This document shows positions 39,171 through 42,954 of a stretch of 58,087 nt of DNA, piece by piece. The notes under the pieces are model-generated. The model was not told the origin of the DNA and made no database searches. It saw nothing but the letters and a program-made list of their open reading frames with translations. Where the stretch lies: the IMG/VR virus record IMGVR_UViG_3300008629_000005, positions 1 to 58,087 of that record. One strand, 5' to 3'. A program made the translations under genes and the position numbers. The first letter of the stretch is position 1, and each line of letters opens with the position of its first letter. This DNA comes from a virus.

Positions 39171-40099
39171 TGATTAAGGTTCTTTCATTAGCATTACTTT
39201 TAGTATTGAGTAGCTGTGCTTCAATTCCTAAGTGGACAGACGACCCACAAAATTGTGGTCGCTGGGACGAAGGGTTTAAGAAAGATGTATACACTGGGGT
39301 AAAGAAACAGTTTGCACGAAAATATATTTGTGTGGAAGACCCCGAAGTAGTAAGACTACCCTCATTTCTTGAACTATTAAGATTACCACCAGCAGAAGAG
39401 ATGCCAGTAGTTGCAGTTTATCAGTTCTTAGATAAGACTGGACAGAGGAAGTCCGTAGACAACATTGCAAGCTTCTCTACTGCAGTGACCCAAGGTGGAC
39501 AAGAAATGGTCATAGACGCTCTTAAAACGGCTGGAAATGGTACTTGGTTTAGGGTAGTAGAACGAAGTGGTATAGACCACTTAGTTAGAGAAAGGCAGAT
39601 TATTAGGTCTGCAAGAACAGAATTTGCTAAGGCTGAAGGTAAAGACGAAGCCGAAGGAATACAACCACTACTCTTTGCGGGTATGATAATAGAGGGTGGA
39701 GTAATTGGTTATGATACCAATATAAGAACAGGTGGACGAGGCGCACGGACACTAGGTATTGGTTATAGTAAACGATATCGTCAAGATGTCGTGACCATTT
39801 CAATAAGAGCTGTATCAGTTCTTACTGGAGAGGTTTTATTAAATGTCCAAACTCGAAAGACTATATTGAGTTATGGAACGGGAGGCGATGTTTTCCGTTT
39901 CGTAGAACAAGGAACTCAATTAATAGAGATAGAGGATGGCATTGGAAATAATGAGTCAGTGACTTACGCAGTGCGAACAGCTATTGAAGCTGGAGTGCTG
40001 GAATTAGTATACCAAGGACACGAAAGAGGTTTTTGGAACATAACGGGGTATGACGAAAAGTTCCCCGAGGGGTATAACGAAAATGAAGAAACTAATTAG
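39170..40099 (+). CDS. csgG: CsgG-like curli secretion channel lipoprotein
   Basis: 309 residues (E. coli: 277). Lipobox LSSC with Cys16. Matching stretches to CsgG include PVVAVYQFLDKTGQRK near 84, FSTAVTQGGQEMVIDALK, WFRVVERSGIDHLVRERQII, the transmembrane-hairpin regions GVIGYDTNIRTGGRGARTLG and VVTISIRAVSVLTGEVLL, then TRKTILSYGTGGDVFRF and a C-terminal GVLELVYQGHERGFW. It would form the nonameric outer-membrane pore for curlin export. Stop of CsgF-like gene overlaps its start. The N-terminal insertion (about 20-75) is extra. Confidence 0.95.
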   Translation: MIKVLSLALLLVLSSCASIPKWTDDPQNCGRWDEGFKKDVYTGVKKQFARKYICVEDPEVVRLPSFLELLRLPPAEEMPVVAVYQFLDKTGQRKSVDNIASFSTAVTQGGQEMVIDALKTAGNGTWFRVVERSGIDHLVRERQIIRSARTEFAKAEGKDEAEGIQPLLFAGMIIEGGVIGYDTNIRTGGRGARTLGIGYSKRYRQDVVTISIRAVSVLTGEVLLNVQTRKTILSYGTGGDVFRFVEQGTQLIEIEDGIGNNESVTYAVRTAIEAGVLELVYQGHERGFWNITGYDEKFPEGYNENEETN

Positions 40100-40829
40100 T
40101 TTATTAGGAGCAATATTATTATTGGCTTCGCCTATCGTTTTCGGAGCAGCCACTGATGACAATGAAATTAAGATTACCCAAACGGGTGATACATTAAAAA
40201 TATACATTGACCAAATAGGTTTTGGTAATAAGATAGGTGGTAACGATGGTTCCAGCGGAAGCATAACCGCCATGCTTATTACAGGACAAACTTTGGAGTT
40301 CGATTTAGACTTTACTGGTAATCAGAATGTCTTATTCGGGCCCGTTGTTGCAGACAGTTCGAAATATACATTAACCTTCACAGGTGATTCGAACAAGATA
40401 GACTGGAACATTGGTAATGTAGGGTCAGCAGATGCTACTGATTATCTTTTCACTGTTCAAGGAGATTCAAACATCTTTGACATTGACCAAGGATATGGTT
40501 TAGGAGCAGAAAGATTAAATGCAGATTTAGTCTTAGTGGGTTCTTCGAATGTATTTGATTTGGATTTTGAATCCGATGATGTTGTTTGGAACTGGGATAT
40601 AACTGGTGACTCAAATAATGTTAATACATTACAGAAAGATGGTGCAAACGAAATGACGGTTGAATTAACAGGAGATAGTGCAGATGTGGATATCAATCAG
40701 ATATCAGGAACATGTGTAAGTGGAGCTGGAAACAGTTGTGCAACTCCAAATGCTTTAATTACATTAGATATAACAAGTGATAATGCAGTTATTCAAATCA
40801 ATCAGAAAGACGCAGCTAACGATTCTTAA
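40083..40829 (+). CDS. Curlin-like secreted repeat protein 1
   Basis: 248 residues. Signal peptide ending around FGA|AT, then about eight imperfect 22-28 residue repeats built around [TQ]GDSN-[IV]-[IV]-Q, for example ITQTGDTLKIYIDQ, TGDSNKIDW, QGDSNIFDIDQ, TGDSADVDINQ. The Gly/Asn/Gln spacing imitates CsgA/CsgB curlin repeats (Q-G--N-A---Q), but Asp replaces much of the Ser/Ala. One Cys pair near the end. Start at 40083 lies 17 bp within CsgG. Likely substrate of the CsgG-like pore forming an amyloid-type beta solenoid. Confidence 0.75.
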   Translation: MKKLISLLGAILLLASPIVFGAATDDNEIKITQTGDTLKIYIDQIGFGNKIGGNDGSSGSITAMLITGQTLEFDLDFTGNQNVLFGPVVADSSKYTLTFTGDSNKIDWNIGNVGSADATDYLFTVQGDSNIFDIDQGYGLGAERLNADLVLVGSSNVFDLDFESDDVVWNWDITGDSNNVNTLQKDGANEMTVELTGDSADVDINQISGTCVSGAGNSCATPNALITLDITSDNAVIQINQKDAANDS

Positions 40830-41925
40830 TATATTGTTATTCAGTGGGGTCGCATTTGCAGACCCCATTGGAGACATTGTTGAGTCTACTGGTATAGGCC
40901 AGATAGTTAGAAACAATGAAGTGCAACAGAATAATGTCGGTGGTGACATTTTTTTGTATGACGAAGCCGAAACAGTAAACGGCAGAATGAAGATTGAGTT
41001 CTTAGACGAAGAGGAACTTGATTTAATCGAACACACAGTAGTATACATAGACGAAGTATACTATGACCCTAATCCCTCATTATCAAAAATGTCCTTGAGA
41101 ATGGTTCAAGGAACAGCAAGGTTTGCTTCAGGGAAAGGGAAAAAAATAAAGAAAGCAAACATAGATATTTCAACGCCGACAGCTCAAATAGCAATCAACG
41201 GCACAGATTTTACAACTACTATTGACGAGCTCGGGAGAACACTCGTGATTCTGCTACCTGATGAAACAGGTGGTTCTAGTGGTGAGATAAAAGTATTTAA
41301 TGAGGGTGGAGAAACCTTACTCAATCTTCCATATCAGGCAACTATGGTTTCTACTTTGGAATCTCCTCCAACACAAAATGTTATTATTCAAAACATAACA
41401 CCTTCAATGATTGATAACATGTTTATTGTTTCTCCACCTGCGGAAGTTAAACAAGCAATAGAAGACGCTGTCGCTGACGACCAAAATGACGATACTGGAA
41501 TACTAGATGTAGACTTTTTAGAGTTCAATGATTTAGAGTCAGACGAACTCGAAGATACCATGGAAGATGATTTCACTGAGCTTGATATAGATATGCTTGG
41601 AGTTGACTTCTTGACAGATTTATTAGATGTGGTAGAAGCACTAGATAAAAAGATTAAAGGGTCAGGCTCAACTGGTGGTGGAGCAACCCTAGGACAATTC
41701 AATATTAAAGGTGCAGTCCAAGGATTCAATAAAGACTCACAGTTTAATGTATTTGTCCAAGACGGAGACCTATATCTCTATAGAGATGTGAATGGAAAGA
41801 TTGAGATAATCATTGCAGCTGGAGGTTTAGGATACTTAGATTTAACTTTAGACGGGTATGAAGGGATTATTGATTTCGGTCAAGGAGACACCAATATTGA
41901 AATTGTAATCAGGCAAACTAACTAA
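40783..41925 (+). CDS. FecR-domain secreted protein with curlin-like C-terminus
   Basis: 380 residues. Signal peptide ending VAFA|DP, then a FecR-type domain: MVQGTARFASGKGKKIKKANI, ISTPTAQIAINGTDFTTTID (the xIRGTxF-type strand) and LVILLPDETGG. The middle (about 225-285) is acidic; the C-terminus GFNKDSQFNVFVQDGDL and QGDTNIEIVIRQ looks like curlin repeats. FecR-domain proteins often occur beside CHASE2 cyclases in bacteria, and such a cyclase ends this operon. Overlaps curlin-like 1 by 47 bp. Probably a periplasmic or surface sensor/anchor. Confidence 0.78.
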   Translation: MQLFKSIRKTQLTILNILLFSGVAFADPIGDIVESTGIGQIVRNNEVQQNNVGGDIFLYDEAETVNGRMKIEFLDEEELDLIEHTVVYIDEVYYDPNPSLSKMSLRMVQGTARFASGKGKKIKKANIDISTPTAQIAINGTDFTTTIDELGRTLVILLPDETGGSSGEIKVFNEGGETLLNLPYQATMVSTLESPPTQNVIIQNITPSMIDNMFIVSPPAEVKQAIEDAVADDQNDDTGILDVDFLEFNDLESDELEDTMEDDFTELDIDMLGVDFLTDLLDVVEALDKKIKGSGSTGGGATLGQFNIKGAVQGFNKDSQFNVFVQDGDLYLYRDVNGKIEIIIAAGGLGYLDLTLDGYEGIIDFGQGDTNIEIVIRQTN

Positions 41926-41928
41926 ATA
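41921..41928 (+). promoter_or_regulatory. Possible internal late box ACTAAATA
   Basis: Overlaps the FecR-gene stop, about 20 bp before a small gene with TTAGGAG. Could boost the second half of the operon. Confidence 0.4.
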
Positions 41929-41947
41929 AAAGACATTAGGAGTAAAT

Positions 41948-42097
41948 ATGAAATATTTAAAGGACTTTTTAGAATGGCACGAAAGACTTTGTTGGAAGTT
42001 TATCGATAGATTCAACCTTACAGATTACCAAGCACTTTGGATAGCATGGGCTGAAGGTGTAATTCTTGTTTTACTTGTTTGGTGGATTTGTGGGTGA
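41948..42097 (+). CDS. Small membrane protein, 49 aa
   Basis: TTAGGAG seven bases before ATG. Sequence is aromatic and basic at first (WHERLCWKFIDRF) and ends with one membrane segment (AEGVILVLLVWWICG). Its TGA overlaps the GTG start of the next gene (GTGA), suggesting coupled translation with curlin-like 2. No family recognised. Confidence 0.65.
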   Translation: MKYLKDFLEWHERLCWKFIDRFNLTDYQALWIAWAEGVILVLLVWWICG

Positions 42098-42954
42098 AAC
42101 AAACTGAGGGAAAATTGGACTGGTCAGCAAAATTATTCATAGGGTGTTTTACACTCATGGTGTTATTTTCAGCAATTAAAGCATTTGCTGATGATGATAA
42201 CCGTATCAATATTAATCAGGTCACAGCGGGTGGAGATAATCTCGACCTAACTATCGACCAAGAAGGATTCAACAACAATATCTTTTTCTCACTTGGAGAC
42301 GGAGACGATTACGATATAGAAATCTTACAAAAAGGAAACAATAATGAAATTGGATACGCAAATGATTCCCCCAGCTGGGGCTCAGGTTATGGTTGGGGTG
42401 GCGATATTGACGGAGAAAGACAATCACTTAAACTCTACCAAAACTGCACGAAAAATTCGTCCTGCGGTAAAAACGACATTCAGTTCCACATAGCATATGG
42501 AGATGACAATACACTTTGGTGGGCCCAAGGATATGAATTCTCAAACCGTAACGACACTACATGGTCAATAGATAATAATGACGGCGGTAATCATACTGTC
42601 ACCATAGATATCCATGGTAGTGATAATTCAATAAAAGGACAGCAAAGGAATTGTGCAAACAATAATTGTGACGGACATTCAGCAAGAATCTATCTCTATG
42701 GAGATGACAATGATGTGTTTGGAAAACAGAAAGGAGACAGTTCAAAGACATTAAACTTAACAGTTCATAATGACTCTAATATTGTTGACTATCTTCAAGA
42801 CGGTAATGCTCAACATACTGCAAATATTACTTTGAATGGTACTTATGGAACTACTTTAGATTTAACGCAACACGCAGGCTCAGCTCAGTCATATACTTTG
42901 TCTCAAGCTTGTTATACAGTCGGCGGTTGCACAATTACAGTAACACAAGATTAA
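42094..42954 (+). CDS. Curlin-like secreted repeat protein 2
   Basis: 286 residues from the GTG at 42094 that overlaps the previous stop; an in-frame TTG at 42079 is less likely. N-terminal membrane/signal segment (LFIGCFTLMVLFSAI) ending AFA|DD, then Asn/Asp/Gly-rich repeats such as INQVTAGGDNLDLTIDQ, ILQKGNNNEIGYA, YGDDNTLWW, HGSDNSIKGQQ and YGDDNDVFGKQ. Curlin-like Q-G--N spacing is clearer here than in protein 1, with four Cys pairs or so. Two curlin-type subunits recall CsgA/CsgB (major fibre and nucleator). Confidence 0.78.
   Translation: MKQTEGKLDWSAKLFIGCFTLMVLFSAIKAFADDDNRININQVTAGGDNLDLTIDQEGFNNNIFFSLGDGDDYDIEILQKGNNNEIGYANDSPSWGSGYGWGGDIDGERQSLKLYQNCTKNSSCGKNDIQFHIAYGDDNTLWWAQGYEFSNRNDTTWSIDNNDGGNHTVTIDIHGSDNSIKGQQRNCANNNCDGHSARIYLYGDDNDVFGKQKGDSSKTLNLTVHNDSNIVDYLQDGNAQHTANITLNGTYGTTLDLTQHAGSAQSYTLSQACYTVGGCTITVTQD

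Follow-up and report, generated by a model that had tools for sequence, protein, structure and literature searches.

Curli genes occur widely among ocean phages, and the locus described here raises the question of whether the FecR-domain protein encoded among them anchors a fibre or regulates its genes. We addressed this question by computation. The locus lies in the virus record IMGVR_UViG_3300008629_000005 (58,087 bases; hereafter the window, meaning the whole stretch of DNA analysed), which carries T4-like structural and replication genes and is a contig of a marine T4-like phage. At its centre, two curlin-repeat proteins, curlin A and curlin B, flank the FecR-domain protein. On balance, the evidence modestly favours the joint reading that the cassette makes a displayed curli-like fibre with the FecR protein as its envelope anchor or cap. 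The grades of confidence given below are our judgements, and that of the joint reading rates the explanation as a whole and is not a product of its steps.

The gene set and its two curlins

The genes of the cassette all lie on the plus strand, overlapping or closely spaced, in the order two small membrane proteins, CsgF, CsgG, curlin A, FecR, a 49-residue open reading frame (ORF), curlin B, a small hydrophobic protein, and a CHASE2-cyclase. The genes for a CsgF-like curli assembly protein (38634‒39170; Pfam CsgF, E = 2.4e-10, above the cut-off) and a CsgG-like outer-membrane curli export channel (39170‒40099; Pfam CsgG, E = 1.3e-50) are located directly upstream of curlin A (40083‒40829), with overlapping reading frames. 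These are followed by the gene for the FecR-domain protein (40783‒41925, with an alternative GTG start at 40777; Pfam FecR, E = 1.2e-7) and by curlin B (42094‒42954, with an alternative TTG start at 42079). A preliminary description of the locus had mentioned neither the upstream CsgF and CsgG genes nor the phage context. Most of the cassette recurs in the same order across 80 relatives, which were taken in from 329 found. CsgG, CsgF, curlin-repeat proteins, FecR, and the cyclase stand in the order published for phage-borne type VIII secretion modules, and we are highly confident that the block is a phage-encoded curli (type VIII secretion) cassette.

This gene set has already been published for related phages, and the window adds a member to it. 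CsgF, CsgG, and a curli-associated protein were described in pelagimyophages, for which "sibling capture" was proposed (Zaragoza-Solas et al. 2020; PMC7029224), and the module in its complete form, which includes FecR, a further curlin, a histidine kinase, and an adenylate cyclase, was found worldwide and transcribed (Wittmers et al. 2022; PMC9599517). The records of the isolates HTVC008M and Melnitz annotate the same gene order. For Melnitz, the record has annotations for FecR and two curlin-repeat proteins, yet csgA and csgB are stated to be lacking in this phage (PMC9004378). A DNA-level search of phages gave no match.

The two proteins flanking FecR had been described as divergent curlins, and this identification is well founded. 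Both exceed the Pfam cut-off for Curlin_rpt (21.8 and 21.0 bits against 20.7; 25.7 and 23.3 bits in the genome search), their family profiles match each other (98.9% probability and E = 1.5e-17 in a profile‒profile alignment), and the curlin B profile matches E. coli CsgA (8enq, E = 1.8e-4) in a search of solved structures, in which the curlin A profile found no match. The turn motif G-[DNSGT]-[STDNG]-[NA] occurs five times in each protein, against 1.0 expected from the shuffled sequence for curlin A (P = 0.0024) and 1.3 for curlin B (P = 0.012). Both curlins have a common DDN[EH]I N-terminus and contain invariant Cys pairs, which E. coli CsgA and CsgB do not have; in curlin B, the invariant C273 and C279 belong to the C-terminal sequence QxCxTxGGCxVxVTQ.

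AlphaFold models curlin A as strand-turn-strand units with GDSN turns (pLDDT, the predicted local distance difference test, 77; pTM, the predicted template modelling score, 0.73). A Foldseek search with this model gave nothing significant and no curlin chain among its matches, and re-alignment of the candidates to the model returned beta-helix proteins with Z scores up to 16.5. Curlin A is thus predicted to be a beta-solenoid, as the preliminary description had expected, and this arrangement, common with beta-helix proteins, does not show amyloid formation. Both curlins and FecR are under purifying selection, with ratios of nonsynonymous to synonymous substitution (dN/dS) of 0.12‒0.18 (~0.12 for curlin A).

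The curlins are also rich in Asp, as had been noted before (13.3% in curlin A and 12.2% in curlin B, compared with a median of 6.9% in the window proteome and 6.1% in E. coli CsgA), and have few Lys or Arg residues. Anchored on the turn, the E. coli repeat reads QxGxxNxAxxxQ and that of curlin A approximately [IVLF]-T-G-[DS]-S-N-x-[FILV]-D-x-x-Q/D, in which the first Gln is replaced by an aliphatic residue and the Ala at N+2 by Phe, Ile, Leu, or Val. The acidic substitution proposed earlier at Ser and Ala positions therefore applies to the turn, where Asp replaces Gly or Ser at G+1, but not to N+2, which holds a hydrophobic residue and not Asp. Further Asp residues of curlin A are located at the alternate strand positions N+3 and N+5, which we take to face outward. 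Acidic turns might make fibre assembly dependent on divalent ions, such as seawater calcium. The composition, the placement of Asp at G+1, N+3, and N+5, and the Asp content of curlin A across relatives (10.7‒15.6%, always rich) would be consistent with such a dependence. However, Asp in curlin B varies between 4.5% and 12.3% in its family, so that acidity is not a conserved requirement there; Pfam detected no calcium-binding motif in the curlins, and acidic composition by itself does not imply calcium binding. We consider the ion-dependent assembly improbable.

The FecR-domain protein

The FecR-domain protein (380 residues) consists of a signal peptide (residues 1‒26, by inspection), a FecR fold (~57‒220), a linker with 27% Asp (226‒292), and a C-terminal domain (~305‒380). 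The C-terminal 80 residues form a domain conserved across the family, and dN/dS is 0.131 in this tail and 0.13 over the whole gene. The N-terminal half of the predicted structure matched PupR (6ovk, Z = 15.2), BDI_1681 (Z = 13.1), and 5ix9 (Z = 7.2), with the next match at 5.2; the FecR profile gave only unrelated weak matches among solved structures.

Since PMC9599517 calls FecR an iron-dependent regulator, the protein could regulate the curli genes, either in signalling or in response to iron. The Pfam match fits this role, and so does the predicted fold, which PupR has in its periplasmic part and a putative anti-sigma factor also has. However, FecR anti-sigma regulators have a cytoplasmic anti-sigma domain and a transmembrane helix before the FecR domain, whereas here the signal peptide runs straight into the FecR domain and Pfam matched no anti-sigma domain. 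A reading of the ORF list by eye, which is not a systematic screen, brought up neither a partner extracytoplasmic function (ECF) sigma factor nor a TonB transducer, and the nearest alphaproteobacterial FecR domains are found within large proteins, some of which bear repeats-in-toxin (RTX) or cadherin domains. A regulatory role is, in our view, very improbable.

These cellular relatives were sought in 385 genomes of one class, presumably Alphaproteobacteria, reached through a Maricaulis-binned genome. The best non-phage matches span only residues ~22‒232 of the phage protein and lie mostly in long proteins (545 to more than 2,000 residues for the top dozen); among ten partial sequences scanned, RTX repeats were found in two (L096 and L106) and cadherin-like domains in three (L096, L097, and L104). 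The bacterial RTX protein L106 matches 5ix9 by sequence (E = 0.0012), and the sequence link of phage FecR to 5ix9 runs only through this relative. The entry 5ix9 is deposited as "Antifreeze protein" under the title "Cell surface anchoring domain", and we take it to be the N-terminal anchor of a Marinomonas ice-binding adhesin. In the predicted structure of phage FecR (pLDDT ~78), the match to 5ix9 aligns 73 residues within residues 26‒121, and a Z of 7.2 over this length falls where unrelated folds can score. RTX adhesins are generally held by N-terminal periplasmic retention modules (PMC13090378). Because of the signal peptide without an anti-sigma domain match, the relatives in large RTX- and cadherin-type proteins, the link to 5ix9, and the retention modules of RTX adhesins, we prefer a structural role, in which FecR holds or caps the fibre at the envelope, to the published role in iron-dependent regulation. 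This anchoring or capping is a tentative reading, to which we stop somewhat short of subscribing.

Full-length cellular homologues of FecR were also considered, and all eight matches in the genome collections look like phage DNA binned into metagenome-assembled genomes (MAGs), a phage origin judged by identity (L083‒L086) or gene content (L087‒L089) and not proven. The Maricaulis-binned L089, probably a contig of phage origin, encodes the same small proteins along with CsgF, CsgG, curlin, and FecR. Phage curli contigs apparently occur in MAGs labelled Sphingobacteriales, Synechococcus, Planctomycetaceae, Saprospirales, Neomarinimicrobiota, and Maricaulis (L083‒L090). Such mis-binned contigs are a trap for claims of a bacterial origin of the module.

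In the structural reading, infected cells would use the cassette to display a fibre of the curli type, with CsgG and CsgF as its outer-membrane exit. Curlin A, which is conserved and adjoins CsgG, and the variable curlin B would be exported as beta-solenoid subunits; our guess is that curlin A is nucleator-like and curlin B the bulk or displaying subunit. FecR would be exported to the periplasm, where its fold would stay like the retention module of an adhesin, while its disordered acidic linker would extend as far as the channel or pass through it, and the strand at its C-terminus would dock on a curlin. A division of labour of the trio into fibre, nucleator, and anchor, as first suggested for this locus, is plausible and fits the FecR evidence. 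The most specific form of this reading, by analogy with RTX adhesins, is that FecR is a retention module with a plug in the periplasm, an acidic linker tethering it through the CsgG channel, and an end that docks on curlin; we regard it as somewhat unlikely in this detail.

A possible docking element is found at the C-terminus. All 42 FecR representatives, all 35 of curlin A, and 35 of the 36 of curlin B terminate in [IVLF]x[IVLF]xQ followed by a few residues, an ending present in none of 344 background ORFs. E. coli CsgB also ends in this signature (MAIRVTQR), and by eye it is found in the divergent FecR proteins of HTVC008M and Melnitz. Because the pattern was noticed post hoc and the sequences are related, we treat it as a lead and not as a test.

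That the signature was spotted after seeing the data is one of several points that weigh against an anchored, displayed fibre, and the modest score of the 5ix9 match is another. FecR does not have the DDN[EH]I N-terminus of both curlins, and its own passage through CsgG is therefore doubtful. The FecR C-terminus lacks a confident model (pLDDT <50, with moderate confidence in the N-terminal half only), and its comparison with the curlin A and curlin B profiles gave probabilities of 0.9% and 0.7% (hhalign). The view that FecR ends in curlin-like repeats is thus not confirmed: the turn motif is present within the last 84 residues in only 9 of 42 family representatives, the window protein holds one GDTN motif there, and Pfam matched no Curlin_rpt in the protein. 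Of the repeats thought to be common to all three proteins, those of the curlins stand, their turn motif exceeding the shuffled expectation, and that of FecR fails in the profile comparison. In addition, Melnitz-infected cultures did not clump (PMC9004378), and CsgE (PF10627) was not found in six phage records, several of them fragmentary, with a positive E. coli control. CsgE is cited as not essential in PMC7029224.

The missing CsgE could also mean that FecR replaces CsgE or CsgC as a chaperone or gate and remains in the periplasm throughout. Its export, judged by inspection, the overlap of its reading frame with that of curlin A, its conservation in all sets, and the resemblance of its terminal strand to the curlin ends would suit this role. 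No similarity to CsgE or CsgC was seen, however, and the long acidic linker and the C-terminal domain would be left unexplained. We consider a chaperone or gate unlikely.

Proposed fibre display and exchange of curlin B heads

Evidence bearing on display comes from curlin B in other phages. In curlin B of the HTVC008M type (L107‒L146), the stalk is 80‒92% conserved in many pairs, and N-terminal heads of ~200 residues are exchanged. HTVC008M has a PA14 domain ahead of the curlin repeats (E = 2.7e-6); its curlin B and that of L120 are 88% identical over 229 stalk residues but show no significant similarity in the preceding stretch of more than 200 residues. This second head, which has no Pfam match, is present in many of L115‒L142, and the loci of this group that reach far enough have FecR upstream and the cyclase downstream. 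Since swapped heads on a conserved stalk are expected of a displayed fibre, the exchange supports, at the level of sequence comparison, a displayed and binding fibre in the HTVC008M-type lineage. We found no paper linking curli, phage, and PA14, and the head swapping looks unreported.

The cassette probably makes a surface fibre, whose benefit may be the aggregation or capture of neighbouring cells. Alternatively, CsgG and CsgF could form a pore for lysis timing or uptake, with the curlins vestigial; a role in lysis was proposed for Melnitz (PMC9004378), and the pore is discussed in PMC7029224. The purifying selection on the curlins and FecR, their retention in loci long enough to show them, the variation of curlin B by head swapping in other phages, and the two curlin-repeat proteins annotated in Melnitz itself argue against this explanation, and we give it very little credence. 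A FecR protein within the fibre apparatus instead of an iron regulator, together with exchangeable curlin heads, would point to an adhesion organelle. If the retention-module form of the reading is true and the fibre of related phages displays exchangeable binding heads, curli would be anchored here in a new manner, and the phages would build an adhesion organelle whose specificity can be swapped.

Accessory genes and comparison with known systems

Between FecR and curlin B, a 49-residue membrane microprotein (MKYLKDFLEWHE...LLVWWICG) is encoded at 41948‒42097 on the plus strand, and its stop overlaps the curlin B start (GTGA). It has no family match. Relatives of 48‒51 residues with the pattern WHE...YQxMWxAxxxGxxxxLLxWIF are located at the same place in many related loci (L013, L020, L032, L034, L035, L041, L049, L054, and L069) and are absent in other phages. 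The microprotein is recurrent, is missing from the annotations seen, and looks unreported.

At the upstream end, two paralogous small membrane/coiled-coil proteins of 97 and 92 residues (38091‒38384, phrog_18771, E = 8e-27; 38384‒38662, phrog_18771, E = 9.3e-30) occupy the place of the gene or genes published as a histidine kinase. In 71 of 81 sets, the first is found upstream of CsgF; most of the remaining sets are incomplete loci. Neither Pfam nor NCBIfam detected a kinase domain in the two proteins; the published label is doubtful on this basis, and their membership in the module is not. One of the two weakly matches Rz-like spanins (E = 6e-4), which possibly reflects coiled-coil similarity only.

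At the downstream end, a small hydrophobic protein without a family match (42996‒43229), which precedes the cyclase in 17 of 81 sets, is followed by the last cassette gene, a CHASE2-class III adenylate/guanylate cyclase (43199‒45106; Pfam CHASE2, E = 2e-28, and Guanylate_cyc, E = 5.7e-18). By eye, the cyclase motifs FADIVGFT, GDCLMAFWG, and VVGDAVN look intact, and the enzyme may produce cyclic AMP or cyclic GMP in the host. The region beyond the cassette (45214‒46391) encodes an Hsp20-like chaperone and a peroxiredoxin-like ORF, and Hsp20 is found at that place in 39 of 81 sets; the other sets include many incomplete loci. The terminase of the window phage matches cyanophage-type myoviruses at ~45% and phage C48C1 (Kyanoviridae) at 55%, so these matches do not settle the host.

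Compared with known systems, the cassette is closest to the pelagiphage module (PMC9599517, PMC7029224, HTVC008M, and Melnitz), with which it shares the order of two small genes, CsgF, CsgG, curlin, FecR, curlin, and adenylate cyclase. Compared with its HTVC008M counterpart, curlin A of the window shows only 33% identity, over 88% of its length, and FecR shows 43% over 63%. The window differs in that its curlin B has no N-terminal head and its two small proteins have no histidine-kinase domain match. The E. coli csgBAC-csgDEFG system shares CsgG, CsgF, and curlin-repeat subunits with the cassette, including the match of the curlin B profile to CsgA and the strand signature at the CsgB C-terminus; in contrast, the window has no CsgE, larger hydrophobic residues in place of Ala at N+2, more Asp, Cys pairs in both curlins, and FecR and the cyclase within the cassette. 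With the FecR/PupR-type anti-sigma regulators, phage FecR shares the periplasmic FecR fold (Z = 15.2 to PupR), but it has an N-terminal signal peptide and no match to a cytoplasmic anti-sigma domain. The RTX adhesin anchor 5ix9 resembles the predicted fold of phage FecR residues 26‒121, within the limits given above for the 73 aligned residues (Z = 7.2). Unlike that anchor, phage FecR is a protein of 380 residues separate from its fibre, and it would use CsgG instead of a type I exporter.

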